Below the pieces are notes generated by a model. That model saw only the letters and a list, made by a program, of their open reading frames with translations, made no database searches and was not told where the DNA came from. 64,000 nucleotides of DNA from Rhodoferax aquaticus (GTDB taxonomy: Bacteria > Pseudomonadota > Gammaproteobacteria > Burkholderiales > Burkholderiaceae_C). A program made the translations under genes and the position numbers. Positions 2,591 through 29,447 of this stretch are shown in pieces. Positions within the stretch are counted from its first letter, which is position 1. Each line of letters begins with the position of its first letter. The stretch covers positions 1,178,001 to 1,242,000 of the forward strand of contig NZ_CP036282.1 of NCBI RefSeq assembly GCF_006974105.1, written 5' to 3'.

Positions 2591-3675
<1,085 letters not shown>

Positions 3676-3683
<8 letters not shown>

Positions 3684-4596: not shown

Positions 4597-4600
4597 AACT

Positions 4601-5776
4601 ATGAACCGTACATCCACGCCTTCGGCTGACAGCAGCCAAAACGATAGCCAGTTTGACCCACTTGCCGCCATGCAGCAGTGGCACACCTACCGGGAAATCC
4701 ATGCCCAACCCAGGGTGTGGAGCGCTTGGGCTGCGCAATTGGCGCAGCAATTGCCCGCGTTGCAGGGGTGGCTGAAAGACGCAGACTATGCGGCGGTATG
4801 GTTTTGTGGGGCCGGGACCTCCGCCTTCATCGGTGAGGCATTGGCTAGCTACCTCAATCCCCGCAGTGCCACGCCTCGCTACCGGGCGGTTGCCACCACG
4901 GATGTGGTGGCCCAGCCCTACCACGCCTTGCAGACTGCTGGCAAGCTGCTGGTGGTGTCGTTCGGGCGCAGTGGCAACAGCTCGGAAAGCCTGGGCACCT
5001 TGGATGCGCTAGACGCATTGGCGCCCCATGCAGACCGCTTGCACATTACCTGCAATGCCACAGGGGCTTTGGCTCTGCGCAGCGTGCCTGGGCCCGGCGT
5101 TTTACGCACCGTGGTGCTGCCTGCTGAGACGGACGATGCAGGCTTTGCCATGACGTCAAGCTACACCACCATGCTGCTCACCGCTTTGGCGTGTTTTGAT
5201 GCGCAGCCACCGCTGCCCGTGCAGCAGCTTTTGCCCGCTCTGGCGCAAGCTGCGCAAGCGCTGCTGGACGGCATGCCCGCTTGGGCGGAAAAAAATGCAC
5301 ACACCCGCCCGTCCCGTGCCGTGTTTTTGGGCAGTGGGCCCTTGCTTGCGGCGGCCCGCGAAAGCGCCTTGAAAGTGCTGGAGCTTACGGCGGGTGAAGT
5401 GGCCACCTTGTGGGACTCCACCTTGGGGTTTCGCCATGGCCCCAAGGCGTTTGTCAATGCGAATACGCGGGTGCATGTGCTGGTGTCGTCTGACCCTCAC
5501 ACCCAGCGTTACGACCTGGATGTGGTGCACGAAATTCGCCGCCAGTTTGGCCCCAGTGCGGTTTGCACCATAGGGCCGGATCAAGCCCAGTGTGACGTGG
5601 TCGTGCCGGTGGTGGGCAACGATGGCTGGAGCGTGGTGCTGTATGTGCTGTTTGCCCAGTACATGGCTATGCACTGGTCCCATGCGATGGGGCTCCAGGT
5701 GGATAACCCCTTCACCAGCGGCAACCTGACCCGCGTGGTCAGCGGTGTAACGCTGTACCCCGTGCACGCGGTATAG
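4601..5776 (+). CDS. agaS: AgaS-like SIS-domain sugar-phosphate isomerase/deaminase
   Basis: A 391-residue protein with two SIS domains. The first shows WFCGAGTSAFIGEAL and VSFGRSGNSSESLGTL; the second shows FLGSGPLLAAARESALK followed by ELTAGEVATLWDSTLGFRHGPK, a pattern of the AgaS branch. Members convert galactosamine 6-phosphate to tagatose 6-phosphate with release of ammonia. The ATG at 4601 lies 4 bases after the regulator stop; an in-frame ATG at 4571 would overlap the regulator and adds nothing recognisable. The neighbouring kinase and deacetylase genes would supply its substrate. A glucosamine 6-phosphate deaminase role cannot be excluded. Confidence 0.88.
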   Translation: MNRTSTPSADSSQNDSQFDPLAAMQQWHTYREIHAQPRVWSAWAAQLAQQLPALQGWLKDADYAAVWFCGAGTSAFIGEALASYLNPRSATPRYRAVATTDVVAQPYHALQTAGKLLVVSFGRSGNSSESLGTLDALDALAPHADRLHITCNATGALALRSVPGPGVLRTVVLPAETDDAGFAMTSSYTTMLLTALACFDAQPPLPVQQLLPALAQAAQALLDGMPAWAEKNAHTRPSRAVFLGSGPLLAAARESALKVLELTAGEVATLWDSTLGFRHGPKAFVNANTRVHVLVSSDPHTQRYDLDVVHEIRRQFGPSAVCTIGPDQAQCDVVVPVVGNDGWSVVLYVLFAQYMAMHWSHAMGLQVDNPFTSGNLTRVVSGVTLYPVHAV

Positions 5777-5792
5777 GCCGGGAGTTCACTGC

Positions 5793-6707
5793 ATGCTAGG
5801 TGCCATTGACTTAGGCGGGACCAAAATCGAGGCTTGCGTGTTTGACCCGCAGCTGCAAGCGCTGCAGCGCCAGCGTAGAGCTACGCCCCATGGCTCTTAT
5901 GCCGAACTGCTCGATGCCATCGTCCAGCAGTGCCTGTGGTTACAAACCCAAGCGGGCAATGCGCAGTTGCCCATAGGCATTGGGATACCGGGTCTCATAG
6001 ACCGCCGCTCTGGCTTGTCAACAACCGCCAACCTCGCGGCCATGGGGCGCCCCCTGCAAGCAGACTTGAGTGCGCGACTTGGGCGGCACATTGCGGTAGA
6101 GAACGACTGCAAATGCTTTGCGTTGTCGGAGGCCCAAGGTGGCGCGGGGCAAGGGCACGGCGTGGTGTTCGGTTTGATACTGGGCACCGGTGTAGGTGGT
6201 GGTGTGTGTACCCAAGGGGAACTCATGCTGCACCACAATGGTCTTAGCGGTGAAGTCGGGCACATCGCCTTGCCCGCGCAATGTGTTGCGCAGTGGGGGC
6301 TGCCGGTTATTCGCTGCGGCTGCGGGCGTACTGGTTGCTATGAGACCTATGTGTCTGGCCCCGGCATGACCCGGCTGTGCAAGCACCTCACCGGGCAGGC
6401 ACTGAGTGCCCCCGAGATTGTGCAAGGCAATGCGCATGGCGACCCACTGCTGCAAAGCGTCTTTGGGGTGTGGGTGTCCTTGCTCTGTGAGCTGCTCCAC
6501 ACCGTGCAGCTGGTGGTAGACCCAGACTGCGTGGTGTTTGGTGGCGGGCTCTCGCGCATACCTGCGCTGGCCGAGCACGTGGCGCGTGCCTTCCCCTCAC
6601 ACCAACTCTCAGGCCTGCGTGCACCGCACTTCACCAGCGCCACATTTGGCGACAGCAGTGGCGTGCGGGGAGCCGCCATCTTGGCGCAACGCCTCATCTC
6701 TTCCTAA
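5793..6707 (+). CDS. ROK-family sugar kinase (N-acetylhexosamine kinase or fructokinase-like)
   Basis: A 304-residue ROK kinase of normal family length. It has the N-terminal ATP-binding signature GAIDLGGTKIEA, the catalytic aspartate in VENDCKCFALSEA, the glycine-rich LGTGVGGGV, and GEVGHIALP followed by the zinc site CGCGRTGCYETYVSGPG. The GEVGH motif is typical of kinases acting on N-acetylated hexosamines and related sugars. In this operon it would phosphorylate the imported sugar before NagA removes the acetyl group; the exact sugar is inferred. It starts 16 bases after agaS, and the agaZ-like gene follows 9 bases later. Confidence 0.88.
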   Translation: MLGAIDLGGTKIEACVFDPQLQALQRQRRATPHGSYAELLDAIVQQCLWLQTQAGNAQLPIGIGIPGLIDRRSGLSTTANLAAMGRPLQADLSARLGRHIAVENDCKCFALSEAQGGAGQGHGVVFGLILGTGVGGGVCTQGELMLHHNGLSGEVGHIALPAQCVAQWGLPVIRCGCGRTGCYETYVSGPGMTRLCKHLTGQALSAPEIVQGNAHGDPLLQSVFGVWVSLLCELLHTVQLVVDPDCVVFGGGLSRIPALAEHVARAFPSHQLSGLRAPHFTSATFGDSSGVRGAAILAQRLISS

Positions 6708-6716
6708 GAAATTGCC

Positions 6717-8012
6717 ATGCAAACCCTTCTCGACATAAACCACCGTAACCGCAGCAACCCCGACGCGCTGGCTAGCATGCCATCGGTCTGTTCTGCACAT
6801 CCGCAAGTCTTATTGGCCGCCTTGTTATTGGCCAAGGAGACACACCGTCCGCTGCTGGTAGAGGCTACGAGCAACCAAGTGAACCAGTTTGGCGGTTACA
6901 CCGGTATGCAAGCGGCTGACTTCATTGCCTACGTCTATGGCATTTGCGAAAGCCATGGCGTGGAGCGCACGCTGGTACTTTTTGGGGGGGACCATTTGGG
7001 CCCCCAGGCTTGGCGTGACCAAGATGCCCACGCTGCCATGGGCCATGCCAGTGCCTTGGTTGCCTCTTATGTGAAGGCTGGCTTCAGCAAAATCCACTTG
7101 GATTGCTCTGAGGGCTGTGCGGGAGAGCCGGGCCAGGTCGGCGATACCGTCAGCGCCGAACGCGCTGCGCAACTTGCCCAAGTGTGCGAAGAAGCAAGCA
7201 GTGAGACAAGCAGCCTCAGCTATGTAGTGGGAACTGAGGTGCCACCCCCAGGGGGTGCCCGCGCTGAAGACGGCTCTATGCTGGTGGTGCCCACCTCCGC
7301 AGACAGCGCCCGTAAGACCATCGCTGCGCATGCGCAGGCCTTTGCCCAGCGTGGCCTGCAATCCGCTTGGACCCGTGTGGCGGCATTGGTGGTGCAGCCG
7401 GGCTTGGAGTTTGCGCCTGACCACGTGCATCACTTTGATCTCGCTTCGCCGGATTGGCTGTCGCAGGTACTGGTGCCTTACCCGCAACTCGCGTTTGAAG
7501 CCCACTCCACCGACTACCAAAAACCAGCGGTATTTGCAGAGTTGGCGCGGCGGCACTTCACGGTACTCAAAGTTGGCCCTGCGCTCACGTTTGCTTACCG
7601 CCAAGCGGTGTATGCCTTGGACGCGCTTGCCCATTGGCTGGCGCCGAACAGCACGCGAGCCAGAGTGCCGCAGGTTATGGAGCAGTTGATGTTGGCGGAA
7701 CCACGGCACTGGCACAAGCACTACAGCGGCGATGCCCATGCGGTGTACCTGCTGCGTCACTTCAGCTATGCCGACCGTGTGCGCTACTACTGGGGCCAAC
7801 CCGCTGCCAGCCGCGCGGTGGAGCAGCTCATGCAACTCTTGGCGTCAATGCCTGCGCCCTTGGGGCCGCTCATGGAGCAGCACTTTGCATCTGATGTCTT
7901 GGAGTCAAGCCAAGCCCTGCAAGCCCAAGGGTTTGCGTGGGCCCAGGCCTTGGTTTTGGCGCAAGTACAAGCAGCGCTGCGACCCTACCTGGTGGCCAAG
8001 CCCGTTGCCTGA
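6717..8012 (+). CDS. agaZ: AgaZ/GatZ/KbaZ-like protein (tagatose-bisphosphate aldolase accessory subunit family)
   Basis: A 431-residue protein of the GatZ/KbaZ/AgaZ family, recognised by VEATSNQVNQFGGYTGM, LFGGDHLGP, KIHLDCSEG, YVVGTEVPPPGG and FEAHSTDYQ. In enteric bacteria GatZ and KbaZ support the class II aldolases GatY and KbaY, while comparative work on N-acetylgalactosamine pathways has proposed a tagatose 6-phosphate kinase role for AgaZ. No aldolase gene (agaY/kbaY) lies in the visible part of this operon, so the catalytic partner is elsewhere or the protein acts alone. Codon use and spacing match the neighbours. Confidence 0.85.
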   Translation: MQTLLDINHRNRSNPDALASMPSVCSAHPQVLLAALLLAKETHRPLLVEATSNQVNQFGGYTGMQAADFIAYVYGICESHGVERTLVLFGGDHLGPQAWRDQDAHAAMGHASALVASYVKAGFSKIHLDCSEGCAGEPGQVGDTVSAERAAQLAQVCEEASSETSSLSYVVGTEVPPPGGARAEDGSMLVVPTSADSARKTIAAHAQAFAQRGLQSAWTRVAALVVQPGLEFAPDHVHHFDLASPDWLSQVLVPYPQLAFEAHSTDYQKPAVFAELARRHFTVLKVGPALTFAYRQAVYALDALAHWLAPNSTRARVPQVMEQLMLAEPRHWHKHYSGDAHAVYLLRHFSYADRVRYYWGQPAASRAVEQLMQLLASMPAPLGPLMEQHFASDVLESSQALQAQGFAWAQALVLAQVQAALRPYLVAKPVA

Positions 8013-8016
8013 GCGT

Positions 8017-9195
8017 ATGCACGGCGACCTCTCTACACTGCGGCCTGCGTTTGATTGGCGTCACACCCCTGCGTGGTGTGTACATGCCCCTCAGGTCTTT
8101 GATGGCCAAGCGTTCTTGCCGGACACGGCAGTCACCGTGAGGCAGGGTCGTATTGCGGCCATAGGCCCCCTGCAAGCGCCCATGAACGTGGGCTTGCCGG
8201 TGTGGCACACGGCGGGCACCGTCGCGCCTGGCCTCTTTGACATTCAGGTCAATGGGGGGGCAGGGCGCATGTTCAACAACACACCCGATGCCCCCACGTT
8301 GCGCCACATTGGAGATGCGCTTGCCCGGGCGGGTACCACCGCCTGGTTGCCCACCTTCATTACCGACACGCCAGAGCGCATGGCACTGGCAGCACAGGCC
8401 ATACAGGCCGTGTATGGCCGCCATGGCGTGGTCGGTGTGCATTTTGAAGGCCCCCATATCAGCGTGCAACGCCGTGGTGCCCATTTGGAGCAACGCATTC
8501 ACCCGCTCAGCGAGGCGACTCTGGATCTGCTGGCGGGCTTGCGAGCCCACAACATCCCGGTGCTGCTGACCCTTGCGCCTGAAATGCAGCGCCCCGGCAG
8601 CATTGCCCGCTTGTGCGCGATGGGGGTTGTTGTCTCCTTGGGTCACACGGCGGCTACCTCTGCACAGGTGAACGCTGCCTTGGCCGAAGGGGCTACTTGT
8701 TTTACCCATTTGTTCAACGGCATGACCCCCATGGGCTCGCGCGAGCCTGGCGTGGTGGGGGCGGCGCTGGACAGCACGGCGTGGTGCGGCGTGATTGCCG
8801 ATGGCCACCATGTGGCTGATGCAGTGTTGCGCATTGCTATTCGCGCACGGCCGCGCGCTGACCGCACGGTGCTGGTTTCAGACGCGATGGCCACCACACA
8901 CGGGCCTTCGGAGTTTTCGCTGTATGGCGAGACCATACGCGTGGTGGACGGCAAACTGGTCAACCAGGCGGGGTCGCTAGCGGGGGCCCACATTGACCTG
9001 GCCACATCCGTACACAGGCTGATTGGCCAAGTGGGCATAGAGCCTGAGCAGGCCTTGCGCATGGCGACCCACAATCCCGCAGAACTGATGGGCCTGACCG
9101 ATACCGTAGGCCATTTGCGTCTGGGCATGCCTGCCAACCTGGTGCTGTTCGATCCCCAATGGCATCTGCTGGCCAGTATGGATAGTTCTGAATAG
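8017..9195 (+). CDS. nagA: N-acetylhexosamine-6-phosphate deacetylase (NagA family)
   Basis: A 392-residue amidohydrolase with the NagA pattern: PGLFDIQVNGGAG near the N-terminus, metal ligand Glu in HFEGPHIS, His in SLGHTAAT and THLFNGM, and the catalytic Asp in LVSDAMATT. It would hydrolyse GlcNAc-6-P or GalNAc-6-P to the amine and acetate in the cytoplasm; the AgaS and AgaZ neighbours favour GalNAc-6-P (an AgaA role). The frame is open far upstream into agaZ, but the ATG at 8017, 4 bases after the agaZ stop, gives the normal length. It is the last gene of the operon. Confidence 0.92.
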   Translation: MHGDLSTLRPAFDWRHTPAWCVHAPQVFDGQAFLPDTAVTVRQGRIAAIGPLQAPMNVGLPVWHTAGTVAPGLFDIQVNGGAGRMFNNTPDAPTLRHIGDALARAGTTAWLPTFITDTPERMALAAQAIQAVYGRHGVVGVHFEGPHISVQRRGAHLEQRIHPLSEATLDLLAGLRAHNIPVLLTLAPEMQRPGSIARLCAMGVVVSLGHTAATSAQVNAALAEGATCFTHLFNGMTPMGSREPGVVGAALDSTAWCGVIADGHHVADAVLRIAIRARPRADRTVLVSDAMATTHGPSEFSLYGETIRVVDGKLVNQAGSLAGAHIDLATSVHRLIGQVGIEPEQALRMATHNPAELMGLTDTVGHLRLGMPANLVLFDPQWHLLASMDSSE

Positions 9196-13320: not shown

Positions 13321-14301
13321 CTAGGTCTTGGCAGTGCGCCCCGCAATCGTGAAGCCCGTGGTGTTGCCCTCTATTGGACTGGCATCGACCCACGCACCCT
13401 CCTTGCATAAGTCATGGACCAACTGATGCGTCAACTGCGCTACCGCAGTGGCCGCGGTGGAAATGGGGATGTGCTTGGACGCACACAAGCTCACTACGCG
13501 CTGGAGCGTGGGCAAAACGACTGGAATGGCCTTGAGCGTCCCCGCATCTAAATCGGCGCGCAGCGGCATGACGGGCAGCAGCGTGTGGCCCATACCCGCG
13601 AGCAAGGTGGTCCGCAAGATGCTGATAGAACTGATGTCCGCCACCACATGGGGCGGTGGGTAAGCACGCTTGCGCGCAGCCGCTTCAATGGTGGGGCGCA
13701 CACCATGCGGGTCCGCGGGCAAGATGAGGGGCAATGCCAGCGCCTTTTTGAGGGTGATGGACTTCGCCACGCGCAAGGCCGGTGACTGGGTGGAGCCAAT
13801 GAGGCTTAAGCGCTCGCTCAGCAGCGCTAGCGTGGTGAACTCATCCAAGTGCCCATCGTCAAACAGCACCGCCAAGTTCAAAACTCCAGTGCGTAACTGC
13901 GGGATCAAGTTGCCGGTGAGCTCCTCTGTAAGTTCTAGCTCCACCTTGGGCAGACGCTGGCGCACCGCCTGCAAGAGTGGCAGGGCCAGCGCGTTCGAGA
14001 CACTGTGGGGAATGCCAAACACCACTTTGCCAGACGGTTCCCCCAAAGCACTGCGCACGCTGGAGCGGGCATCTTCGGTCTGACGCAAGATGGAAATAGC
14101 ATGCGCCAAAAAAACGCGCCCTGGTTCGGTGAGCTCCACGCCCCGGCGTGTGCGTAGCAGCAGTTGCACCCCCAGTTCGTCTTCTAGCTGGGCGAGTTGG
14201 TGGCTCAGGGCCGACTGGGCCACGAACACCTTGTCAGCGGCTTTAGAGAAAGCGCCGTGTTCGGCAATGGCGACAAAGTAGCGAAGTTGACGTAATTCCA
14301 T
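13321..14301 (-). CDS. LysR-family transcription regulator
   Basis: A 326-residue regulator. The N-terminal helix-turn-helix is typical (MELRQLRYFVAIAEHGAFSK, then AQSALSHQLAQLEDELGVQL), followed by the periplasmic-binding-protein-like effector domain. The ATG at 14301 gives the canonical start; the longer frame to 14346 adds 15 residues without similarity. Its target is not evident: the gene is convergent with its right-hand-coordinate neighbour's opposite side and is separated by a 375-base gap from the divergent amidohydrolase gene. Effector unknown. Confidence 0.9.
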   Translation of the reverse strand: MELRQLRYFVAIAEHGAFSKAADKVFVAQSALSHQLAQLEDELGVQLLLRTRRGVELTEPGRVFLAHAISILRQTEDARSSVRSALGEPSGKVVFGIPHSVSNALALPLLQAVRQRLPKVELELTEELTGNLIPQLRTGVLNLAVLFDDGHLDEFTTLALLSERLSLIGSTQSPALRVAKSITLKKALALPLILPADPHGVRPTIEAAARKRAYPPPHVVADISSISILRTTLLAGMGHTLLPVMPLRADLDAGTLKAIPVVLPTLQRVVSLCASKHIPISTAATAVAQLTHQLVHDLCKEGAWVDASPIEGNTTGFTIAGRTAKT

Positions 14302-14676
14302 GGGAGGTGCCCTGGGTGCAAGGTGTTGGTGCCTTGAATTATCCATCTTGAATCCAGATGGAAGTAGATGAATTCAGTATTTGTCAGATGGTTAATGGCG
14401 TGCTGAAATACCTAGGCCTTCAAGCAGTTTCACCCAAGGCCTACAGGTCTTGGGGCGTGGCAGACCTTGCCCACATACGCTGCCGCAGGCGCTTCTTACC
14501 GGAAGTGCAATGACAGAGCCGCAAGCGCGCCGACCACCCACCATGGTGCGCTTGCGGGTCGCCTAGGCGACTGAAGTCAGATCCTTGTGCGGGTTTCTCT
14601 CGGGGCGCACAACACTGCGCCCCATCTAAGATGAAACGCGCGGGCCGCGTCGGCCCACAACTCCTCATTTCCGCTC
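14302..14676. other. 375-base gap with several inverted repeats
   Basis: No gene is seen here. The stretch contains CCGCAAGCGC (14519-14528) paired with GCGCTTGCGG (14548-14557), the perfect palindrome GTCGCCTAGGCGAC (14558-14571), and a hairpin GGGGCGCA-CAACAC-TGCGCCCC (14602-14623). These could be binding sites or RNA structures in the leader of the amidohydrolase gene. Confidence 0.5.
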
Positions 14677-17099: not shown

Positions 17100-18215
17100 A
17101 TGACAGAAAACCGCATCTATGTCACCCAGCCGCATCTGCCACCGCTAGAGGAGTTTATTCCCTACTTGGAGCAGATCTGGAGCAGCAAAGTTCTCACCAA
17201 CTGCGGGCCATTCCACCAGCAATTCGAACAAGCGCTGTGCGAATACTTGGGCGTTAAACACATCAGCCTATTCACCAATGGCACCATCGCACTGGTAACG
17301 GCCCTGCAAACTTTGCGCATTTCCGGCGAGGTGATTACTACTCCGTATTCTTTCGTAGCAACCGCCCATTCCTTACTTTGGAACAGCATCAAACCGGTGT
17401 TTGTCGATATTGACCCGGTAACCCTCAACCTGGACCCCGATCGCATTGAAGCGGCCATTACCCCAAGAACGACTGCAATCATGCCGGTGCACTGTTACGG
17501 TCATGCTTGCGATGTGGAACGCATACAGAAGATTGCGGACAACTATGGGCTCAAGGTGATTTATGACGCGGCCCATGCATTTGGTGTCCAGTGCCAGCAT
17601 GGCAGCGTGTTGCGATACGGAGATCTGTCGGTTTTGAGCTTTCACGCGACCAAAGTGTTCAATACCTTTGAGGGGGGCGCTATCGTCTGCCCCGATGCAA
17701 AAACCAAGAAACGCATCGATCAGTTGAAAAACTTTGGCTTTGTCAACGACACCACAGTCATTGCTCCCGGAATTAACGGCAAGATGAGTGAAATCAATGC
17801 GGCCCTGGGCTTGTTACAACTGAAGGGGATTGATGCTGCCATCCAAAAACGCGGCGTTATCGACCAGACCTACCGTGACGGATTGACTCCAATCAAAGGC
17901 ATACGCTGCGTGCCGGATGCCGCTGAAACTGTAGGAAACTACGCTTACTTCCCGATTCAGGTGGGCCCGGAATACCCAATGACAAGGGACGGATTATTTC
18001 AAAAACTGCACGATCACGGCATCATTGCACGACGCTACTTTCACCCACTGATCAGTGAATTTCCCATGTACCGCGGATTGCCGTCATCCGCAGCCGCTAA
18101 TCTACCAGCGGCCTCCAAAGTGGCACGCGAGGTTATTTGTCTGCCGATTTACCCAAACTTACCACCCGAGCAGGTTGAGTTCATTGTGAGCCTCATCGCA
18201 AATCAAATAACGTGA
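17100..18215 (+). CDS. DegT/DnrJ/EryC1/StrS-family sugar aminotransferase
   Basis: A 371-residue PLP enzyme that typically transfers an amino group to a keto-sugar nucleotide. The PLP lysine is K185 in SFHATKVFN; other motifs are FTNGTIALVTALQ, ITTPYSFVATAHS, PVHCYGHACDV and YDAAHAFGV. The N-terminus (MTENRIYVTQPHLPPLEEF) fits the ATG at 17100; an in-frame ATG at 17022 would add 26 unconserved residues. It is the first gene of a coupled four-gene operon, its stop overlapping the next start by 4 bases. No dehydratase making a 4-keto sugar is present, so the keto substrate must come from the operon's oxidoreductase or elsewhere. Confidence 0.9.
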   Translation: MTENRIYVTQPHLPPLEEFIPYLEQIWSSKVLTNCGPFHQQFEQALCEYLGVKHISLFTNGTIALVTALQTLRISGEVITTPYSFVATAHSLLWNSIKPVFVDIDPVTLNLDPDRIEAAITPRTTAIMPVHCYGHACDVERIQKIADNYGLKVIYDAAHAFGVQCQHGSVLRYGDLSVLSFHATKVFNTFEGGAIVCPDAKTKKRIDQLKNFGFVNDTTVIAPGINGKMSEINAALGLLQLKGIDAAIQKRGVIDQTYRDGLTPIKGIRCVPDAAETVGNYAYFPIQVGPEYPMTRDGLFQKLHDHGIIARRYFHPLISEFPMYRGLPSSAAANLPAASKVAREVICLPIYPNLPPEQVEFIVSLIANQIT

Positions 18216-19345
18216 AGCCAATCACTATGCCAGCATCACCCTTGGTGAACTACAACCAGAGAGAAACCACAACACTGGTTTTCCCAGCAACGCACCTTGA
18301 CGGACTGGAATTTATTGAGTCGGCCCAACAGCAAGGCATCAAAGTGGTTGCAGCCACATCGGAATGGGATGCTGATGTAGCCCAAAGAGTGGGGGACTTG
18401 ATGACCCTGCCCTATATTTATGACGAACGCTTCCCAGCCTGCTTTCTCGAATTGGTTAGCGCGCAAAACATTGACCAGGTCTATTGCCCCGTGTCATCTG
18501 TCTACATCTGGCTCAATAACTTCATCCAATCGAGAGGTGTGCCAATTGCGCTGTTAGGAGAGTCTCCAACCCAAAAGGAAGTTCAACGCCATGAGAAATT
18601 GCTGAAAAAAGTCGATTTACACCGAACTTTTATTGACCAATGCTCCGATGGCGCCTGCAATATGCGCAATATCGAAGTGGCTGCAGTTCTACGTATGGCT
18701 GCAGATATTTATGGTGAATCCAATGAGCAGAAGATTGCGGCAATGATGGCCATCTTCTCCAGCGTCCCCAAAGGGGATGTTATCGAAATTGGCTCACTCG
18801 CTGGAAAATCTGCCGCGGTGCTCGCGCTCATGGCACGCAGGCACAACATTGGAAATATCCTGTCAGTAGACTCGTGGCAGTGGGAAGCAGGTACGCAGCA
18901 TGACTCACCGGAAAATGTGAGTGTCAGCATGGCCAATGCATGGGACCTCAACGTTGTCCACGATATCTTTACCGTCAATTTATTCCCGATTGGCGTTGGT
19001 GTATTCAATTACATCCACAATGAATCTGCCCAGGCATTTGAGATCTACCGAAGAGATCTCAGCGTGTACAGCGCCACATTCGGTCGCACTGATTACACAG
19101 GCAAGATCGCGCTCATCCATATTGACGCAAACCATGACTACGTCAAAGTCAAACTAGATTGCGACCTATGGTTGCAAATGCTGGCTCCGGATGGATGGCT
19201 GATTCTGGATGACTACCTGTGGGCCCACGGCGATGGTCCATACCGGATGGGCAATGAACTACTGGCACAACGTAGCGATACTATTGAGCGCGCGTTTGTG
19301 TGCGGCAAAGCATTGTTCATAAAGTTCAACTCGGCCAAAAACTAA
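18212..19345 (+). CDS. Fusion of a pre-ATP-grasp-like domain and a class I SAM methyltransferase
   Basis: A 377-residue protein with two parts. Residues about 10-120 look like the Rossmann-type domain that normally precedes an ATP-grasp fold (TTLVFPATHLDGLEFIESA, CPVSSVYIWL, then GESPTQKEVQRHEKLLKK, where ATP-grasp would begin). Instead a methyltransferase of the Methyltransf_24/TylF-like type follows: DVIEIGSLAGKSAAVLAL (SAM loop), LSVDSWQWEAG, IHIDANHDYVKVKLD and DGWLILDDY. The GTG at 18212 overlaps the previous stop; an in-frame ATG at 18227 is an alternative. It probably methylates the operon product; the substrate is unknown. Confidence 0.75.
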   Translation: MKPITMPASPLVNYNQRETTTLVFPATHLDGLEFIESAQQQGIKVVAATSEWDADVAQRVGDLMTLPYIYDERFPACFLELVSAQNIDQVYCPVSSVYIWLNNFIQSRGVPIALLGESPTQKEVQRHEKLLKKVDLHRTFIDQCSDGACNMRNIEVAAVLRMAADIYGESNEQKIAAMMAIFSSVPKGDVIEIGSLAGKSAAVLALMARRHNIGNILSVDSWQWEAGTQHDSPENVSVSMANAWDLNVVHDIFTVNLFPIGVGVFNYIHNESAQAFEIYRRDLSVYSATFGRTDYTGKIALIHIDANHDYVKVKLDCDLWLQMLAPDGWLILDDYLWAHGDGPYRMGNELLAQRSDTIERAFVCGKALFIKFNSAKN

Positions 19346-19349
19346 CACC

Positions 19350-20498
19350 ATGCCAAAAGTGCTCTTGGTGGATACGAATTTTTCGTCCACTCCCATCCAC
19401 GATTACTTGTTGCAAAGTGGCTACGATGTTTATGTCTGTGGTGGCAACCCGCTAGATTCCCTGGCGAAGTCGTGCAAGAACTACATCAACATTGATTATT
19501 CAGATACAGAGGCGATGCATGCCCTGGTCAAAACAATGAAATTTGATTTTGTAGTTCCCGGATGCAACGATCGCTCTTATCGCGCCTGCGCAAACTTGGT
19601 TGGCGACATGTATTTCGGCTTGGATTCCGCTGAAACCGAGCAAATCATCAACAACAAAGAACTGTTCAGGGCCTTTGCACTTGAGCATGGGTTGTCCGTT
19701 CCCCGTGTCGTTGCATCACCCCTCACACAAGACATTTGGCCTTTGATAGTCAAACCGGTCGATGCATACAGCGGGAGAGGAATGTCAATTATTTCCACAT
19801 CCGAACAGCACAAGCTTCAAAACGCCATCACAAAAGCGGAAACATTTTCAAATACAAACACCTGCATCATTGAAGAGTTCGTACAAGGGCAACTCTATAG
19901 CCATTCCGCCTTTTTAAGGAATGGCGACTTCCAAGCCGAATTCATCGTGGAAGAACACGGCACTGCCAATCCATTTGTGGTGGATACAAGTTGGGTCGTG
20001 CATGATTTCCCAGAAAAAATGCTGGAAAAAGTCCGGGCAGACATTCTCAGAATGGCAAAAGAGTTGCGCCTGACGGATGGCTTAATACATACGCAGTTTA
20101 TTGCCAATGACTCGTCATTCTGGTTAATCGAGGTAACACGGCGATGCCCAGGTGATCTTTATAGCAAGCTGATAGAAAGTAGCACAGGGTTTAAGTACAT
20201 CGAAGCTTACGTGGCACCATTTTTAAATCAGAATTTTTTCGCCGATAAGCAAAAACATCAATATGTCAACATATTACGGCACACCATTTCCCAGTCCGAA
20301 GAAAAAATATTCAATTCTATTCAATTTAATACACAGTTAAGAATCAATGCGTACATACCGTTGTGTATGCCAGGCGATAGAGTGAAGGCCAGTCCTTTCG
20401 GAAGGATTGGTCTTCTGTTTGCCCAAGTATCTGAACAGCAGGCGTTTCTCGCATTGCAGCAGAAAGTCCTTAGCCGAGATATCTATACGCTTCATTAG
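19350..20498 (+). CDS. ATP-grasp domain protein (carboxylate-amine ligase-like)
   Basis: A 382-residue protein. It starts with a pre-ATP-grasp domain (KVLLVDTNFSSTPIHDYLLQ), followed by the ATP-grasp core: NNKELFRAFALEHGLSVP, WPLIVKPVDAYSGRGMSII (ATP-binding lysine and glycine loop), IIEEFVQG, and FWLIEVTRRCPGDLY as the metal-binding end. Such enzymes join a carboxylate to an amine or thiol through an acyl phosphate. Next to a sugar aminotransferase it could attach an amino acid or other acid to the new amine (inference). It follows the methyltransferase gene after 4 bases. Base composition is clearly AT-richer than the flanking chromosome. Confidence 0.85.
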   Translation: MPKVLLVDTNFSSTPIHDYLLQSGYDVYVCGGNPLDSLAKSCKNYINIDYSDTEAMHALVKTMKFDFVVPGCNDRSYRACANLVGDMYFGLDSAETEQIINNKELFRAFALEHGLSVPRVVASPLTQDIWPLIVKPVDAYSGRGMSIISTSEQHKLQNAITKAETFSNTNTCIIEEFVQGQLYSHSAFLRNGDFQAEFIVEEHGTANPFVVDTSWVVHDFPEKMLEKVRADILRMAKELRLTDGLIHTQFIANDSSFWLIEVTRRCPGDLYSKLIESSTGFKYIEAYVAPFLNQNFFADKQKHQYVNILRHTISQSEEKIFNSIQFNTQLRINAYIPLCMPGDRVKASPFGRIGLLFAQVSEQQAFLALQQKVLSRDIYTLH

Positions 20499-20509
20499 GA
20501 AATGACTCC

Positions 20510-21577
20510 ATGCGCACACTCCGTGGTCAAACCCAAGGTCCTGTCAGGTTAGCCGTTGTCGGACCGGGCTTAATGGGAAAACGGCATATTGAGCTCATCG
20601 CAGCCAATGCCCAGTGTGAACTCGTCAGCATAGTCGCGCCAGAGCATGCATCGCATGAACAATTCGCCCATCAACTCGGGATTCCCCTGTACCACAGTAT
20701 CGAAGCAATGCTGCAATCCACCGCTCTGGATGGCGTCATTATTTCCTCCCCCAATGTTTTCCATGCTGCACAAGCGGCACTTTGCATTCATGCCGGCATT
20801 CCTGTTCTAGTGGAAAAGCCTATCAGTCACTCGGTTGAATCTGCAAGCCAACTTGTTGAGTTGGCAGATAAAAAAAATGCCAAGGTATTGATAGGCCACC
20901 ACCGCGCGCACAGTCCCCTATTGGCTGCAGCGCGGGACATCATCCAGAGCAAGGAGCTGGGAAATGTAGTCGGCATTATGGGAAGTGCGCTTTTTTACAA
21001 GCCATCTAGCTATTTTGAGGCTGGACCTTGGCGCCGTGAGATTGGTGGCGGCCCTATTTTGATCAACTTGATCCATGAAGTAGGGAATTTCCGGTCACTG
21101 TGCGGAGAAATTACTGCGGTGCAAGCCATCACATCTTCCGCCATTCGGAAATTTCCCGTCGAAGATACGGTGGCCATCAATTTTCAGTTTGCCAGTGGGG
21201 CGCTCGGCACCTTCCTTTTGTCGGATACCGCCGCGTCCAGCAGGAGCTGGGAACACACATCGCAGGAGAACAAAAGCTACCCTGCGACTGAAAATGGGGA
21301 GTGCTATCTGGTGACCGGGACGCGCGGATCGTTGTCTATTCCCAATATGCAACTTAGCTACTATGAAGGTGAACGCACTTGGTGGACACCACTTCAGCAA
21401 AAAATATGGCCCGTTGAAAGGCAAGATCCTCTCGAATGCCAGTTAAACCACTTTATTAAAATCATCCAGGGATGGGAGAATCCACTTGTCACCGCAAGAG
21501 ATGGCTTTGAAAATCTCAGAATTACTGAGGCTATAAAAGAGTCTTCATTAAGCCAAAAGATGGTTCAACTGAGTTAA
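20510..21577 (+). CDS. Gfo/Idh/MocA-family oxidoreductase
   Basis: A 355-residue NAD(P)-dependent dehydrogenase. It has an N-terminal Rossmann motif VVGPGLMGKRHIELI, then SSPNVFHAAQAALCIHAGIP and VEKPISHSVESA (the catalytic EKP), and a C-terminal domain with GHHRAHSPLLAAARDII and GGGPILINLIHEVGNF. Family members oxidise a sugar hydroxyl or reduce a keto group. Paired with a DegT aminotransferase it could make the keto group that is then aminated, as in WbpB/WbpE-type pairs (family knowledge; pairing here inferred). It is the last gene of the operon, 11 bases after the ATP-grasp gene. Confidence 0.88.
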   Translation: MRTLRGQTQGPVRLAVVGPGLMGKRHIELIAANAQCELVSIVAPEHASHEQFAHQLGIPLYHSIEAMLQSTALDGVIISSPNVFHAAQAALCIHAGIPVLVEKPISHSVESASQLVELADKKNAKVLIGHHRAHSPLLAAARDIIQSKELGNVVGIMGSALFYKPSSYFEAGPWRREIGGGPILINLIHEVGNFRSLCGEITAVQAITSSAIRKFPVEDTVAINFQFASGALGTFLLSDTAASSRSWEHTSQENKSYPATENGECYLVTGTRGSLSIPNMQLSYYEGERTWWTPLQQKIWPVERQDPLECQLNHFIKIIQGWENPLVTARDGFENLRITEAIKESSLSQKMVQLS

Positions 21578-21638
21578 AAATACCTACATATGCAAGTTTC
21601 ATGAATATGTAATTGAAAATACTGGAGCACTAATCGCT

Positions 21639-21743
21639 GTGAATGAAAGTCTATTTGGCGACTTGCCAAATCTTTATCTTGTCGTTGCGACAATTGAGGC
21701 TATTTATTTTATGGCGAGCAGAATTTTTTCACGCATTTCATGA
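21639..21743 (+). CDS. Possible 34-residue ORF or truncated gene start
   Basis: GTG start with GGAG about 10 bases upstream; the predicted peptide begins VNESLFGDLPNLYLVVATIE and ends in SRIFSRIS. It resembles the amphipathic beginning of a larger protein cut short by a recombination point. No family recognised. It lies just after the four-gene operon, in the gap before the convergent fkbM-type gene. Confidence 0.25.
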   Translation: MNESLFGDLPNLYLVVATIEAIYFMASRIFSRIS

Positions 21744-21773
21744 GAGCTTTCACAAAGCACTCCTAGAAAATCG

Positions 21774-22514
21774 CTATTTCGAAGCGAATATGTTGCAAAA
21801 ACGTTTGGTGCTTGTGTCCCTAGAGAACTCGGACCGCATTTCACTAACAGTCATTGCTCTTTGCAACCAGTCATCGATTATGACTATCTCTTTAAAGCCA
21901 AGTGACGCAATGAACTCCGGAAAGTTTTCTGGATCATAGCCAGCCGCTCTCATCCAAGTTGGCGCCCACTCTATAACCATTTTTAAATCCTTGCTTGATT
22001 CGATCATTTCTTTTGCCCCACTAAGCACCGCGACCTCATCGCCCTGCACATCGCATTTTAAGAAGTCGACTCTCCGTGACTGAGGTTCAAGTTCAAAGTA
22101 CCAATGATCTAGAGTTTCAATAGGAACGGTAATCTTTCGTGTATTTTGCGCAAATGGTGTCATCGAGACACCAGAATTTACATAATCTTCCGTCATGAAA
22201 AAATCGGTTGTTCCACGTCTATTGCCAACGGCAAAGTTAATAATTGACACATTGCCTAGTGTCGCGGTGTTGCCGTGCAAAATAGGGATGACTTCAGGAG
22301 ATGCTTCGACAGCAAATACATGTCCCGCTTCTCCAACCCATTGGGAGGCAAGCGTGGAAAAATAGCCAATATTTGCTCCAATGTCCAAAAATGTATCTCC
22401 AGGTCGGAGATATTTTTTTACATAACTGGTAGTCAGTGGTTCGAATGCATTGTAGATTTTTGCAAGTCTATCCGGCACTTCTATAAACAATTGATCGGAA
22501 ATTTCTATTTTCAT
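21774..22514 (-). CDS. FkbM-family methyltransferase
   Basis: A 246-residue SAM-dependent methyltransferase. Typical FkbM motifs are LRPGDTFLDIGANIGYFSTLA (SAM site), VFAVEASPEVIPIL, VPIETLDHW, and DFLKCDVQGDEVAVLSGA. Members O-methylate sugars or other small groups, often on surface glycans or glycosylated proteins. AT-rich codon use matches the operon at 17100-21577. It is transcribed with the second FkbM gene, 83 bases apart and on the same strand. Confidence 0.88.
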   Translation of the reverse strand: MKIEISDQLFIEVPDRLAKIYNAFEPLTTSYVKKYLRPGDTFLDIGANIGYFSTLASQWVGEAGHVFAVEASPEVIPILHGNTATLGNVSIINFAVGNRRGTTDFFMTEDYVNSGVSMTPFAQNTRKITVPIETLDHWYFELEPQSRRVDFLKCDVQGDEVAVLSGAKEMIESSKDLKMVIEWAPTWMRAAGYDPENFPEFIASLGFKEIVIIDDWLQRAMTVSEMRSEFSRDTSTKRFCNIFASK

Positions 22515-22597
22515 AGTTATTCTGTTTTGTTGGAGGATCAGGGCTCAAGCGTTTTGGGTTGGTTGAATTAAGGAGTTGTAGAGAGCGCTGATATGGT

Positions 22598-23701
22598 CTA
22601 GCGCTTTACTGGTACAAAATACATAATTGTTTCTGTCCAGCTTTCGGTGTAGTGGCGTAAAAATACACTGTATTCAGGCCAGCAATCCAGTACGAAATCG
22701 AGCGTCTTCCAAATATCAGATGGGGCGTGGTAGACAGCTATCGCTAATTTGGGATGGCATTTCTTTATATGCCAAGAAGCACCTTTGAGTGCATTTAATT
22801 CCCAGCCTTCCAAATCCATTTTGATAAATGTGGCCTCATCGTCCAGGTAGGAATCAATAGTAGTCACCTCGATGGAGGCATCGCCATCCGCCGATATCAA
22901 ACTGCCTGAGCCCAAATTGGATTTAAAGTGCAATGTGCCTGCCTTGTCGGATACGCCTTTTTCAATGAATTCAACAGAACGAAATGCTGCCAGTCTACTT
23001 TTGGCTAGCTGCATGTTTTCATGTGAAGGTTCAAACAATATTACCCTTCTATAATTTGGATACTTCAGGCAAAACAACTCTGTGGTTTCGCCGTCGAATC
23101 CACCCGCATCCACAAACACTTCATCGTCAATATTTAGGAAGTCTTCAAAGTATTGCTCTTTAGGTCGATATGTGTAGCCAGGTAGGGCTGAAGAATCGCC
23201 CGTAAGTCGGTACATCAGAACATCATTAAATACTTTTTGTGACTCTGAGTCTGCCAATCGTTCATAAACTGTCTGCCATTTCCCTGCGTGAATCGCCATA
23301 TCTGCTCTCGTTTGCGCGACAAAGTCGGGCAACGGTACTCGGTCTGGCAAGACCTTGCATAAGTCAGCGTATGACAGAATGTTTTTAATCCCAGAACTTT
23401 CAATACGGCGCATTGCAGTGGCTGGTCGTGAATTGGATACGCAATTTACAACGATTGAATCCTTCGCAACTTCATCTAATTTAAATACAGGCTTGCCTCT
23501 CCACGTTGTGCCAACTGGAGCATAGTCGTCAATAAATCCGTCCGAAGCAATCAACGCACTTAGCTGGCTTGATGACTCATTACGCCCGAAGAAATAGAGC
23601 GCTTGCTTACGGTTTTCAGAAATCAACGACAACACCAAAGTTCGAGTTTTTTCATCAACTGTCTGGCCGTAGTTGTTAATGACATTGTTAAAGTCAAGCA
23701 T
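22598..23701 (-). CDS. FkbM-family methyltransferase with long N-terminal extension
   Basis: A 367-residue protein. The C-terminal half is an FkbM methyltransferase: DDEVFVDAGGFDGETTELF, VILFEPSHENMQLAKSRL, EVTTIDSYL, TFIKMDLEGWELNALKGA. The N-terminal 130 residues carry a Rossmann-like pattern (ALYFFGRNESSSQLSALIASDGFIDDY, SIVVNCVSNSRPATAMRRI), seen in FkbM proteins that include a sugar-modification or binding domain. The ATG at 23701 is preferred over an in-frame TTG at 23713. It is AT-richer than the flanking chromosome and belongs to the same island. Confidence 0.87.
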   Translation of the reverse strand: MLDFNNVINNYGQTVDEKTRTLVLSLISENRKQALYFFGRNESSSQLSALIASDGFIDDYAPVGTTWRGKPVFKLDEVAKDSIVVNCVSNSRPATAMRRIESSGIKNILSYADLCKVLPDRVPLPDFVAQTRADMAIHAGKWQTVYERLADSESQKVFNDVLMYRLTGDSSALPGYTYRPKEQYFEDFLNIDDEVFVDAGGFDGETTELFCLKYPNYRRVILFEPSHENMQLAKSRLAAFRSVEFIEKGVSDKAGTLHFKSNLGSGSLISADGDASIEVTTIDSYLDDEATFIKMDLEGWELNALKGASWHIKKCHPKLAIAVYHAPSDIWKTLDFVLDCWPEYSVFLRHYTESWTETIMYFVPVKR

Positions 23702-23754
23702 GCCTATTTCCAATCACTGTTGAAATATTGTTTTCGATTTGCTCAAACTTCGAG

Positions 23755-24297
23755 TTAAGTTATTGCCTGAGGCATAGTACTGTTCGAGCCAGACAAAAAT
23801 ACGTCCATAGACTTTGCTGGTAAATGTTGGCGCCAACGGTGCCACATCTTTCGGAAACCCACCCAAGCCCGATGGCCAGTGAAGTCGGTTTTTCCGGCCG
23901 CCGTCAGTGCGGGTACACCCATCCAAAGCGCATGAACTGTGCTGGTCCCTGCTATATAAGGCACGGGGTCTAGACGCCTATCTATCGCATGGTCGGGACG
24001 CACGTACGCCAAGGTTTCACGTCGCGCGACAAATAGGAGTCGGGCCTTGGGGTTGCTGCCTTGCGCAAACCCCTGCACCCTCTGATCGATAGAGCCTTCC
24101 TGCCCATCCGCGTCACCTATGCGAAGTAATGAAGTCGGCGCATCTATCCATAAACGTGACCACAACGCCACGGTGCTTGGGGACATTTTCTCGGTGAATT
24201 GCGTCTGCACCGGATGCCCTGCTGGGATCAGAAGGGGGCGCGTGACGTAGATTTCAGGAACCATATGGAGGGGCTGACTGGGGTCGCGTCAACAGGC
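23755..24297 (-). pseudogene. Decayed duplicate of the GT41 (O-GlcNAc-transferase-like) C-terminus
   Basis: An open frame of 169 residues keeps scattered GT41 pieces in the right order: QFTEKM, SPSTVALWSRLW, RRETLAY, VPYIAGTSTVHALWMGVPALT, and FRKMWHRWRQHLPAKSMD. Their intact counterparts in the adjacent gene are QFTEKL, TPESVALWAKLL, RRDIQGY, TPYGGGTTTYHALHMGVPTLT and FRTMWKRWCAGLPAESFD. Long segments between them are missing, including the N-terminal TPR region and part of the nucleotide-binding domain, so it cannot be functional as GT41. It marks the right edge of the AT-rich core. Confidence 0.7.
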
Positions 24298-26424
24298 TCA
24301 CGCATCAAACGACTCGGCAGGTAGACCGGCACACCAGCGCTTCCACATGGTCCTGAACGCGCGCGAAATACCATCGACCATGCGTTGTTGCTGCACTTGG
24401 GCTTCTTGGTGGAGTCTTACCTTTTCCGCCAAACTAGCGCGCACCGCAGCGAGTTCATGGAGGTGTTCGCTCCAGTAAACGCCCTTTTCTACAAAATGCT
24501 GCTCATTGTCTGCCGCGAATTGCTCGCAACCGTAATGGGTCAGTATGCAAAGGCCCAATCTGCGAGTGAGTGTGTCACCAAACAAGGTGAGCGTAGGCAC
24601 ACCCATGTGCAAGGCATGGTAGGTGGTGGTGCCCCCACCGTAGGGCGTAGTGTCTAGGCAAAAATCTACTTCTTGGTGCAAGGCCAGATAGCCTTGAATG
24701 TCCCGGCGAGGCTCGAGTCGCAGCCGTTGCCGATCAATGCCAAGCGATTCAAACGACGCGATGAGTCGGAGGTCAACGCCGTCATCGAAATTGACATCGC
24801 CTACCAAGAGTCGCGCGCTTGGCAATGCATGCAAAAGCTTTGCCCACAGTGCCACGGACTCCGGGGTAATTTTCCCGATGCGATTGAAGCTGCCAAGGGT
24901 CAATCCCCCATTGCGAAGCGCAGGCAAGGGCCCAGGATCAGGTAGCCCCGCCTCGGGTTGGATGAGGCCACAAGTGGGCAACCGTACAAGCTTTTCTGTG
25001 AATTGCTGCTCAATCGGGCTCTCGGGCGGGCACAAGACCTTGTCCACCAAGTAGTAGTCCATGCCAGTCAAACCCGTCGTGCCTGGATACCCAATCCAGC
25101 TGACCTGCACTGGTGCTGGCTTGCGCGCAAAGGCCAACAGTCGGTTGAACCGCGTGTGCCCTGACAGATCCACCAAGATATCCACTTGGTCTGCGAGGAT
25201 GGTTGCCGCGAGCGCTTCATCAGACATACCGGCAACGTGATTCCACTGCGCAAAGTGGCCGCGTATTTGCGTGGTCACCTCATCGACGGTAGCCAGCGTG
25301 TAGTAGGCGATCAGTGTCAGTGATGTGTCCTTCGCTAAACGCTCGAACATCGGCAGTATGAACTTGGCTACGACATGCGTACGAAAGTCTGGCGAGACAA
25401 ATCCGACCCGAATCACGCGCTGAGGGTTGCGGTCGTTGGCGTGCTTCGGCCAACTCTTGCGCAAAGGCGCCTCAAACACCTCTCCAAAGCGGCGGTGTTC
25501 TTCAAAGAGTTGCTGTGCCCCCACCGTAGCGTTGTGGCTTAGGCAGAAAAGCAAGTTCATGTGCGCTAGGGCGTCTTGAGGATCAATGCGCAATGCGCTG
25601 CGAAATGCGTCTTCAGCCTCCTGTAGCTTTCCCTGTATCGTGAGCACGCCGCCAAGGTTGTATTGATTCTCCGCGACGGTAGGTGCCAAGGCAACCGCAC
25701 GACGCAGGCATGCATCGGCACCCTTGCCCCCACGACCTTGGAACAGGGCCAAACCAAAGAGCTCCCAACAAAAGTTGTCCATGGGGCACTTAAAAAGCAA
25801 ATCAAGTGCTAACGCCTCAAGCGCTTGGAATTTCTCTTGGGCGAGTAGCTGTGTCGCTGCGGCTTGCTCGTGCATTTTGGTCTTGCTCGCGCGCAGGGCT
25901 TGGTACCTTTTGTCTGCTTTGCGTTTCAGGCTGGACGCGGCGTAAACGCCGCCAGCGGACTTTGACACTTCCATAGCCTCGGACAGATCGAGCAGGAGAG
26001 GAATGAGGGCTGTGGCGTATCCCGGTTTGTCAGGGGAGTCGTTCAAGACCGTCCATGCCTGCAGCAAGCACTGTGATTGGATAAGGGCATCTGCCAAATC
26101 CAAACGGAAAGACATGGACTCTGGACATAGCGCAAGTGCCTTTTTCAATAGCAGTACGCCTTGCTCTGGCTGCTTGGCATGCACGGCGAGTAGACCCAAG
26201 CGGTGATGTGCTTGGGCGTGCTCTGGGTCTTCTTGCAAGATGGTGCGGTAAAACTCTTCGGCCTCCACCAACATGCCAGCCCGGTGGTAAGACTCCCCGT
26301 GCTCTAACGCCGTTTGAAGCACCCGCTCCCGCGCGGCTCGCAGCGCATCATCGATGTGGCTAGGCACGCTCGGTAGTTCTTGCGCCACGTAAGAGCCTAT
26401 TGGAGCTGACTGCATGGAGAGCAT
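24298..26424 (-). CDS. TPR protein with O-GlcNAc-transferase-like (GT41/SPINDLY) catalytic domain
   Basis: A 708-residue protein with N-terminal TPR repeats (residues about 40-290; AEEFYRTILQEDPEHAQAHHRLG) and a GT41 catalytic region (about 340-705). Key residues are visible: the histidine in VGFVSPDFRTH, the lysine in FNRIGKITPESVALW that binds the nucleotide phosphate, and the loop DTTPYGGGTTTYHALHMGVP. Bacterial members transfer a sugar to Ser/Thr of proteins such as flagellin or adhesins. The FkbM methyltransferases next door could methylate the attached sugar. The acceptor is not in the window. The ATG at 26424 is the longest start; 26415 is also possible. Confidence 0.88.
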   Translation of the reverse strand: MLSMQSAPIGSYVAQELPSVPSHIDDALRAARERVLQTALEHGESYHRAGMLVEAEEFYRTILQEDPEHAQAHHRLGLLAVHAKQPEQGVLLLKKALALCPESMSFRLDLADALIQSQCLLQAWTVLNDSPDKPGYATALIPLLLDLSEAMEVSKSAGGVYAASSLKRKADKRYQALRASKTKMHEQAAATQLLAQEKFQALEALALDLLFKCPMDNFCWELFGLALFQGRGGKGADACLRRAVALAPTVAENQYNLGGVLTIQGKLQEAEDAFRSALRIDPQDALAHMNLLFCLSHNATVGAQQLFEEHRRFGEVFEAPLRKSWPKHANDRNPQRVIRVGFVSPDFRTHVVAKFILPMFERLAKDTSLTLIAYYTLATVDEVTTQIRGHFAQWNHVAGMSDEALAATILADQVDILVDLSGHTRFNRLLAFARKPAPVQVSWIGYPGTTGLTGMDYYLVDKVLCPPESPIEQQFTEKLVRLPTCGLIQPEAGLPDPGPLPALRNGGLTLGSFNRIGKITPESVALWAKLLHALPSARLLVGDVNFDDGVDLRLIASFESLGIDRQRLRLEPRRDIQGYLALHQEVDFCLDTTPYGGGTTTYHALHMGVPTLTLFGDTLTRRLGLCILTHYGCEQFAADNEQHFVEKGVYWSEHLHELAAVRASLAEKVRLHQEAQVQQQRMVDGISRAFRTMWKRWCAGLPAESFDA

Positions 26425-28511: not shown

Positions 28512-29447
28512 TCAGCGCGGCGGGACCCTGCCCGACTCGTCAGACAACACAATTTCCACCCGCCGGTTGCGTTGGCGTTGAGGTGCGGTGTCGTTGGCAG
28601 CCACGGGATAAGCCTCGCCATAACCCTTGGCGTCAATGCGCCCTGCAGGTATGCCCAAGTTTTGCAGGGCTTCCATGACCGCGTTGGCGCGCCGCTCAGA
28701 CAGCTCTTGGTTGTGCGCGCTGCTGCCTGTGCTGTCGGCAAAGCCCTCAATCAACACCCTGCGCTGCGGGTTTTCTTGCAAGATGTTCGCCAACTTTTGG
28801 GCGGTGCGTATGCCGTCGCCATTGAGGCGGGCGAGATCGGTGCCGAACAGCACATCGCTCAAGGTAATGACAAAGCCGCGCTCGGTCTTTTGCGCGGCCA
28901 AGGCGGCCAGCTGACGCTCTAGCAAGGCGTTTCTGTCCAGGGCGTTTTGGGCTTGGTTTTGGGCGGCGGCACTTGCGTCCAGGGCCTGTTGGGTGTCAAG
29001 GCGGGCCCGATCGGCCCGCGCCTGGGCGATGGCCGCATCAGCCTTGGCCTGGTCGGCTTCTACCGTACGTTGTTGCAGCAGCACTTGGTCACGCACTTTG
29101 CTGGCGTTGGCGACTTGGGCTTCGGCAGCCTTTTGGCTGGCAAGGGCTTGGGCAATGCCAATTCTTTGCTTGGCCAGGTAGGCCAGTTTGTCGATGTCTT
29201 CGGCGCTCGCCCTATCCATCGCGGCGGTGTTGGCCTGCGAGAGTGCGTCACTGGCAAGCTTCATCTCCAGTGGGGCGTAGGTCGCCACGTCCGGGTTGGC
29301 AACTGCGACCCGGTAGTCCATACGGGTTTGCTCCAGCAGGGTGGTGTTGTTGGGCAAGCTGCTGCACGCACCTAAGAACGCGGCCAGTGCGAGCGCGATG
29401 GGGGCCAACCGGGTCGTCAGATGGCGGGGAAGTGGGGGTGTTTTCAT
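28512..29447 (-). CDS. OmpA-family lipoprotein with DUF4398-like N-terminal region
   Basis: A 311-residue envelope protein. The lipobox is LGACSS; a DUF4398-type region follows (YAPLEMKLASDALSQANTAA), then a long alanine-rich coiled coil (residues about 80-190). The C-terminal OmpA/peptidoglycan-binding domain (about 195-305) shows GFVITLSDVLFGTDLARLN, EGFADSTGSSAHNQELSERRA and QRQRNRRVEI. It would link the outer membrane to peptidoglycan. The gene upstream (29513-29899) shares the DUF4398 part, and both are on the same strand with a 65-base gap, so they are probably one operon. Confidence 0.9.
   Translation of the reverse strand: MKTPPLPRHLTTRLAPIALALAAFLGACSSLPNNTTLLEQTRMDYRVAVANPDVATYAPLEMKLASDALSQANTAAMDRASAEDIDKLAYLAKQRIGIAQALASQKAAEAQVANASKVRDQVLLQQRTVEADQAKADAAIAQARADRARLDTQQALDASAAAQNQAQNALDRNALLERQLAALAAQKTERGFVITLSDVLFGTDLARLNGDGIRTAQKLANILQENPQRRVLIEGFADSTGSSAHNQELSERRANAVMEALQNLGIPAGRIDAKGYGEAYPVAANDTAPQRQRNRRVEIVLSDESGRVPPR

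Follow-up and report, generated by a model that had tools for sequence, protein, structure and literature searches.

We analysed a 64,000-nucleotide stretch of the Rhodoferax aquaticus genome (contig NZ_CP036282.1, positions 1,178,001 to 1,242,000; hereafter the window) and in it a four-gene operon at 17100–21577, which, together with two methyltransferase genes and a glycosyltransferase gene next to it, we read as a laterally acquired protein-glycosylation cassette that builds an acylated, methylated amino-deoxysugar, with a probability of about 0.58. The operon encodes a DegT-type sugar aminotransferase (AT, 17100–18215), a methyltransferase (MT24, 18212–19345), an ATP-grasp ligase (ATPG, 19350–20498) and a Gfo/Idh/MocA dehydrogenase (GFO, 20510–21577), all on the + strand. 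An open reading frame (ORF) check of the window gave the same coordinates as an earlier reading made from the letters alone (the sequence-only reading), and the four enzyme classes named there all have Pfam matches over cut-off. AT and MT24 overlap by 4 bases (GTGA; AT ends at 18215 and the GTG start of MT24 is at 18212), the gap between MT24 and ATPG is 4 bases and that between ATPG and GFO is 11 bases, just as the coupling had been described, and the four tightly packed genes form a genuine operon. Start candidates are GTG 17022 or ATG 17100 for AT, and GTG 18212 or ATG 18227 for MT24, the latter being used by the public protein P0001 (372 amino acids). Predicted promoters (6, with 9.5 expected from shuffles) and terminators (10, with 8.9 expected) showed no excess that marks transcript limits.

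The lower guanine plus cytosine (GC) content that the sequence-only reading reported is real, and extends further than the operon. GC per kb was 0.43–0.52 across 17–24 kb versus 0.56–0.64 in the rest of the window, the sole other dip being 0.524 at 53–54 kb. Among 46 measured window genes, some named by eye and compared within the window rather than with genome-wide codon usage, the six genes from AT to FkbM2 had a GC of 0.425–0.514 and the remaining 40 at least 0.546; GC at third codon positions (GC3) was 0.40–0.60 in the six and at least 0.63 in the other 40 except a glycosyltransferase remnant (0.565), so the GC3 ranges overlap at that gene. Hence the compositionally odd block is 17100–23713, and besides the operon it takes in both FkbM-type methyltransferase genes, FkbM1 (21774–22514) and FkbM2 (22598–23713). 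These two genes lie on the − strand, as do the remnant (23755–24264) and the complete glycosyltransferase gene GT41 (24298–26424), so that they and the operon are convergent. An empty site was not definable, because the three same-genus genomes reached via the OmpA-like gene at 28512–29447 (loci L109–L111) were not collinear with the window.

AT matches the DegT family (PF01041) at 341.6 bits, above the Pfam cut-off, and among PDB sequences its best match is 2po3 (220.6 bits, with the runner-up at 162.2), with which it shares the motif SFHATK. In a tree from which matches with stops or of fewer than 280 residues, and more than two per locus, were left out, the window AT fell inside a supported 22-row clade with long branches and without finer placement. 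In two loci of other genomes rml genes stand in order with AT (rmlB-rmlA-AT-ATPG-FkbM2-Gfo in L093 and rmlB-x-AT-ATPG-Gfo-FkbM2 in L094), which ties AT to dTDP (deoxythymidine diphosphate)-4-keto-6-deoxyglucose, and we hold with good confidence that AT aminates this sugar at C4. The absence of a dehydratase noted earlier applies to the window only, because two rmlB genes (503 bits each) are encoded elsewhere in the same genome. A stretch with rmlB, and with rmlD and rmlA as judged by eye, occurs there twice (7748–11324 of L112 and 9370–12946 of L113, at ∼0.62 and 2.28 Mb), 97% identical over 3578 bases and in opposite orientation.

Pairs of a dehydrogenase and an aminotransferase that oxidise and aminate C3 are known as the WlbA/WbpE and NtdC/NtdA types. 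By analogy, GFO would oxidise C3 of the nucleotide sugar, AT would aminate C3 and ATPG would acylate the 3-amine. GFO matches GFO_IDH_MocA (PF01408) at 92.4 bits, with PF22725 and PF02894 also over the Pfam cut-off, has Rossmann and C-terminal domains and an EKP motif at residue 102, and its nearest PDB sequence is 3q2i (90.3 bits), which we take to be WlbA; AT matches the NtdA (142 bits) and WbpE (132 bits) structures as well. However, AT is far closer to 2po3, and such aminotransferases mostly occur without this GFO, which is present at more than 50% identity in only one of 22 AT loci (L051), and we consider C3 chemistry improbable.

The matched part of MT24 is a methyltransferase domain that depends on S-adenosylmethionine. 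It matches Methyltransf_24 (PF13578) at 63.9 bits, above the Pfam cut-off, residues 123–372 have a fold like MeT1, SpnH, NovP and MycF, and the protein has the fold and metal-binding acidic motif of NovP/MycF/TylF-type sugar O-methyltransferases. When 34 members were scanned, PF13578 was the best family in all 34, TylF (PF05711) was matched by one (E 0.009) and RMNT_CmcI (PF04989) by five (best E 0.0018). From fold and gene company, MT24 probably O-methylates a sugar. The deoxysugar O-methyltransferases NovP, MycF, SpnH and CalS11 are 12–13% identical to MT24, and MT24 alone has an extra N-terminal alpha/beta domain, outside the matched region, making it a recurrent two-domain methyltransferase. 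The sequence-only reading had labelled this N-terminal part as pre-ATP-grasp, a label that found no sequence support, because only methyltransferase families were matched among the 34 members and nothing matched at the N terminus when the profiles of MT24 and ATPG were compared. The predicted order of helices and strands is alike in MT24 residues 15–103 and ATPG residues 3–81, a likeness that does not by itself show structural kinship. In a closed genome of the same genus (G1196; L122, 9954–10478) MT24 is broken, with an in-frame TGA and separate pieces, and the adjoining AT is intact. FkbM1 and FkbM2 match PF05050 at 63.2 and 55.5 bits, and relatives of FkbM2 adjoin ATP-grasp and/or Gfo/Idh genes in L023, L052, L093, L094 and L128. 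Long ORFs in L023 and L052 had raised the suspicion of a fusion of Gfo and FkbM2, which was rejected, as in both loci these proved to be separate neighbouring genes.

The gene company of AT and MT24 in relatives points to glycosylation islands. MT24 occurs in 10 of 399 genomes of the family (E up to 0.001; five strong, with E <1e-40, counting the own genome), in 14 of 399 of the order (six strong, counting the own genome) and in 6 of 100 of the genus (E up to 1e-15, counting the own genome), plus six loci of the genome scan. We tabulated 19 of the 20 strong neighbourhoods outside the own genome, omitting L124 (a partial match without AT), and AT at 40% identity or more is present in 17 and flagellar genes in 10 (L004–L009, L023, L066, L069 and L121, where L004–L008 are close relatives of one another). 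In L121, of the same genus, AT, MT24 and flagellin lie within 11.3 kb, and in L023 MT24 and AT are accompanied by two flagellins, a hexapeptide transferase, an AMP-ligase, Gfo/Idh, FkbM2 and another FkbM protein. L087, also of the same genus, has GT41, AT, WbqC and MT24, and its 19 kb include nothing flagellar, thus the window is not the only place where such genes lie apart from flagellar ones. A second gene company, AT with ATP-grasp, Gfo/Idh and FkbM genes beside rml genes, is found in other bacteria, and the window unites both companies. The sequence-only reading saw no known cluster type here, which must be revised, because AT and MT24 recur in islands often holding GT41 and flagellar genes, a type described for flagellin.

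That reading also saw no glycosyltransferase, whereas GT41 lies in the same island, 2.7 kb beyond the operon. It matches PF13844 at 126 bits, with tetratricopeptide repeat (TPR) models over the Pfam cut-off, and its best structures are SPINDLY 7y4i from Arabidopsis (299 bits) and 8dtf (298 bits), followed by the bacterial TPR protein 5djs (242 bits) and OGT 7yea (193 bits). SPINDLY, which likewise has TPRs and a GT41 domain, is a protein O-fucosyltransferase (PMC9715652); this kinship is compatible with a 6-deoxyhexose donor for the window enzyme and is not proof of it. All of the 12 best matches to the window GT41 (382–454 bits) come from loci that have this AT, and the midpoints of 10 of them are within 2.3 kb of AT; GT41s in other company score at most 347 bits, and the one adjoining the flagellins of the own genome 141 bits. 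The window GT41 belongs with AT. We think it somewhat probable that it transfers the finished sugar to protein, and flagellin is a tentative candidate for the target, at a little below even odds, from its presence in relatives. The remnant, which directly adjoins the complete gene, is the C-terminal part of a second GT41 gene (36% to residues 517–618 of the window GT41) and has no Pfam match of its own. Some relatives (e.g. L008 and L066) carry two complete GT41 genes in one island.

ATPG matches ATP-grasp_4 (PF13535) at 37.6 bits, above the Pfam cut-off, and its ATP-binding residues K135, G142, G144 and E261 do not vary among the 22 sequences aligned. L-amino acid ligases of the ATP-grasp superfamily (BL00235 3vot, RizA 4wd3 and BacD/YwfE) are like it by fold only, and the odds are about even that ATPG forms an amide on the 4-amine of the amino sugar. 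In its nine neighbourhoods outside the own genome (E up to 1e-25; L051, L052, L093–L096 and L128–L130), all nine have a DegT gene and four (L051, L093, L094 and L129) have an AT with 40% identity or more; Gfo/Idh is present in six, and FkbM2 relatives and rmlB are over threshold in four and three, respectively. L051 alone has the GFO subfamily of the window (51% identity), in the order AT-ATPG-GFO. Moreover, relatives of MT24, ATPG and GFO share four contigs outside the own genome (97851, 8371, 11265 and 5988 long, with consistent source labels), as judged by matching sizes among the best 120 of 341, 1436 and 5865 relatives of these three genes; chance gives about 0.65–0.71 matches per list pair when lengths are shifted. 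Genes of the set do recur in other genomes.

Several observations weigh against a cassette for protein glycosylation. The best equivalog model for AT is DesI, yet its 293 bits are below the cut-off of 650. Two AT loci have lower GT41 scores (L092, 283 bits; L067, 213 bits), second GT41 copies in AT loci score lower still, and no GT41 match of at least 80 bits was found in 5 of the 23 loci searched, all with AT (L020, L022, L023, L068 and L121). The flagellin genes of the own genome (4.137–4.161 Mb) are 2.9 Mb from the window (1.178–1.242 Mb) and have a separate GT41 beside them. Among the nine ATPG neighbourhoods GT41 is over threshold in none, flagellar genes are present in one only (L052, flgK/flgL), and the Gfo/Idh of L093, L094, L128 and L129 is of another subfamily than GFO. 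The same kind of acylated amino-deoxysugar may instead be destined for lipopolysaccharide or capsule, with GT41 a chance neighbour. In favour of this, AT, ATPG, Gfo and FkbM2 stand beside rml and, by eye, other surface-polysaccharide genes in L093, L094, L128 and L129 without GT41, and the operon lies on the opposite strand to GT41. However, the closest relatives of the window GT41 are linked to this AT, 10 of the 19 MT24 loci are flagellar, and Pfam recognised no polymerase, flippase or second glycosyltransferase among the genes at 16.4–26.4 kb, and we regard a surface polysaccharide as rather unlikely. The separate GT41 of the own genome (L024, 4804–6966) lies beside fliD and two flagellin genes, and no sugar-synthesis gene was recognised nearby.

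Outside the window, AT is present at 40% identity or more in 22 loci, 18 of which lack ATPG. Of these 18, 16 have WbqC, AMP-ligase or hexapeptide transferase over threshold, and the remaining two (L004 and L007) are cut short by the ends of their contigs. None of these genes is over threshold in the four AT loci with ATPG or in the window. The Fisher p for ATPG against these acylation genes is 0.0006 (0.002 without the window), with kinship ignored, reference sequences taken from MT24 loci and thresholds set after seeing the loci. This suggests that WbqC (assumed here to be an acylator), acyl-ligase/hexapeptide-transferase genes and ATPG are interchangeable acylation arms. The mutual exclusion in AT loci, together with the acyl carrier protein (ACP) route of Pseudomonas syringae (PMC3927599), points to more than one way of acylating the same kind of amino sugar. 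In L008, positions 13427–14374 encode a protein that weakly matches the GH130 type (PF04041), and most AT loci without ATP-grasp have a similar gene, sometimes in two copies.

In the pathway that we propose, housekeeping RmlA and RmlB would supply dTDP-4-keto-6-deoxyglucose, rmlB being present in the genome, and AT would aminate C4 to give a viosamine-type dTDP-4-amino-4,6-dideoxyhexose. ATPG would then join a free amino acid or other carboxylic acid to that amine as an amide, in place of the WbqC or acyl-ligase/short-chain dehydrogenase/hexapeptide-transferase genes found with the same AT in relatives, and GFO may oxidise or reduce the acyl or the sugar part, before or after ATPG. MT24 would O-methylate the sugar, FkbM1 and FkbM2 may add further methyls, and GT41 would move the sugar to serine or threonine of a protein that is still in the cytoplasm and awaits export, with flagellin the likeliest candidate judging by relatives. 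If this pathway is true, bacteria can swap the acyl group on a protein-linked sugar and leave the sugar core and the transferase as they are. A more specific and, for now, doubtful proposal is that this GT41 clade uses dTDP-4-amino-4,6-dideoxyhexose and not UDP-N-acetylglucosamine, with the amide made by an interchangeable arm, here an ATP-grasp ligase that would couple a free amino acid or other carboxylic acid straight to the nucleotide sugar, so that the protein would bear an acylated or aminoacylated glycan. It predicts that the donor of these SPINDLY-like GT41 enzymes of bacteria is a dTDP-amino-deoxysugar, and an arm swap would then alter the surface chemistry of the flagellum with core sugar and transferase unchanged. 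The biosynthetic unit of the sequence-only reading might instead make a free small molecule, a secondary metabolite; the operon is self-contained and its fold matches include ATP-grasp ligases and sugar O-methyltransferases that serve antibiotic pathways. Against this, none of the genes searched with Pfam was recognisable as an assembly-line or resistance gene, and the interpretable contexts are all glycan or flagellar, making a free metabolite very improbable. Elsewhere in the window, positions 1–9195 look by eye like a cluster for taking up and breaking down amino sugars, with genes for an ABC transporter, a SIS-domain protein, a kinase, and GatZ/KbaZ-like and NagA-like proteins.

One of the nearest characterised systems is the viosamine island of P. 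syringae pv. tabaci (vioA, vioM, vioT, vioS, vioB, vioR and acp), for which PMC3927599 demonstrates acylated, methylated viosamine on flagellin. Both systems would combine a dTDP-sugar 4-aminotransferase, acylation of the 4-amine, O-methylation and transfer onto the glycan of flagellin, a likeness of gene roles rather than of compared AT and VioA sequences. In P. syringae the sugar caps a rhamnose chain, and acylation takes the ACP route (vioS, vioR, acp and vioB); in contrast, the window has a GT41 transferase and an ATP-grasp ligase and lies away from flagellar genes, and Pfam matched none of the nine proteins scanned at 16.4–26.4 kb to ketosynthases, ACPs, ketoreductases or acetyltransferases. 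Flagellin islands of Enterobacteriaceae (PMC4875605) have GT41 with a SPINDLY domain, DegT aminotransferase, and FkbM and other methyltransferase genes, as the window does, and rmlB is often elsewhere in the genome; that paper contains neither 'ATP-grasp' nor 'oxidoreductase'. Those islands sit among flagellar genes and the window island does not. Thus the window has the dedicated glycosyltransferase of a flagellin glycosylation island, GT41, and lacks the location among flagellar genes, and for this latter reason we do not class it as one, although by analogy it may work like one. We found no description of an ATP-grasp arm in such an island in the literature searched, which covers only a minority of subscription papers. 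Hence, of the undescribed biosynthetic unit proposed in the sequence-only reading, the cluster type is in fact known and the acylation arm may be new: the general kind of system is familiar, and an ATP-grasp ligase that would decorate its sugar looks like a new variation.

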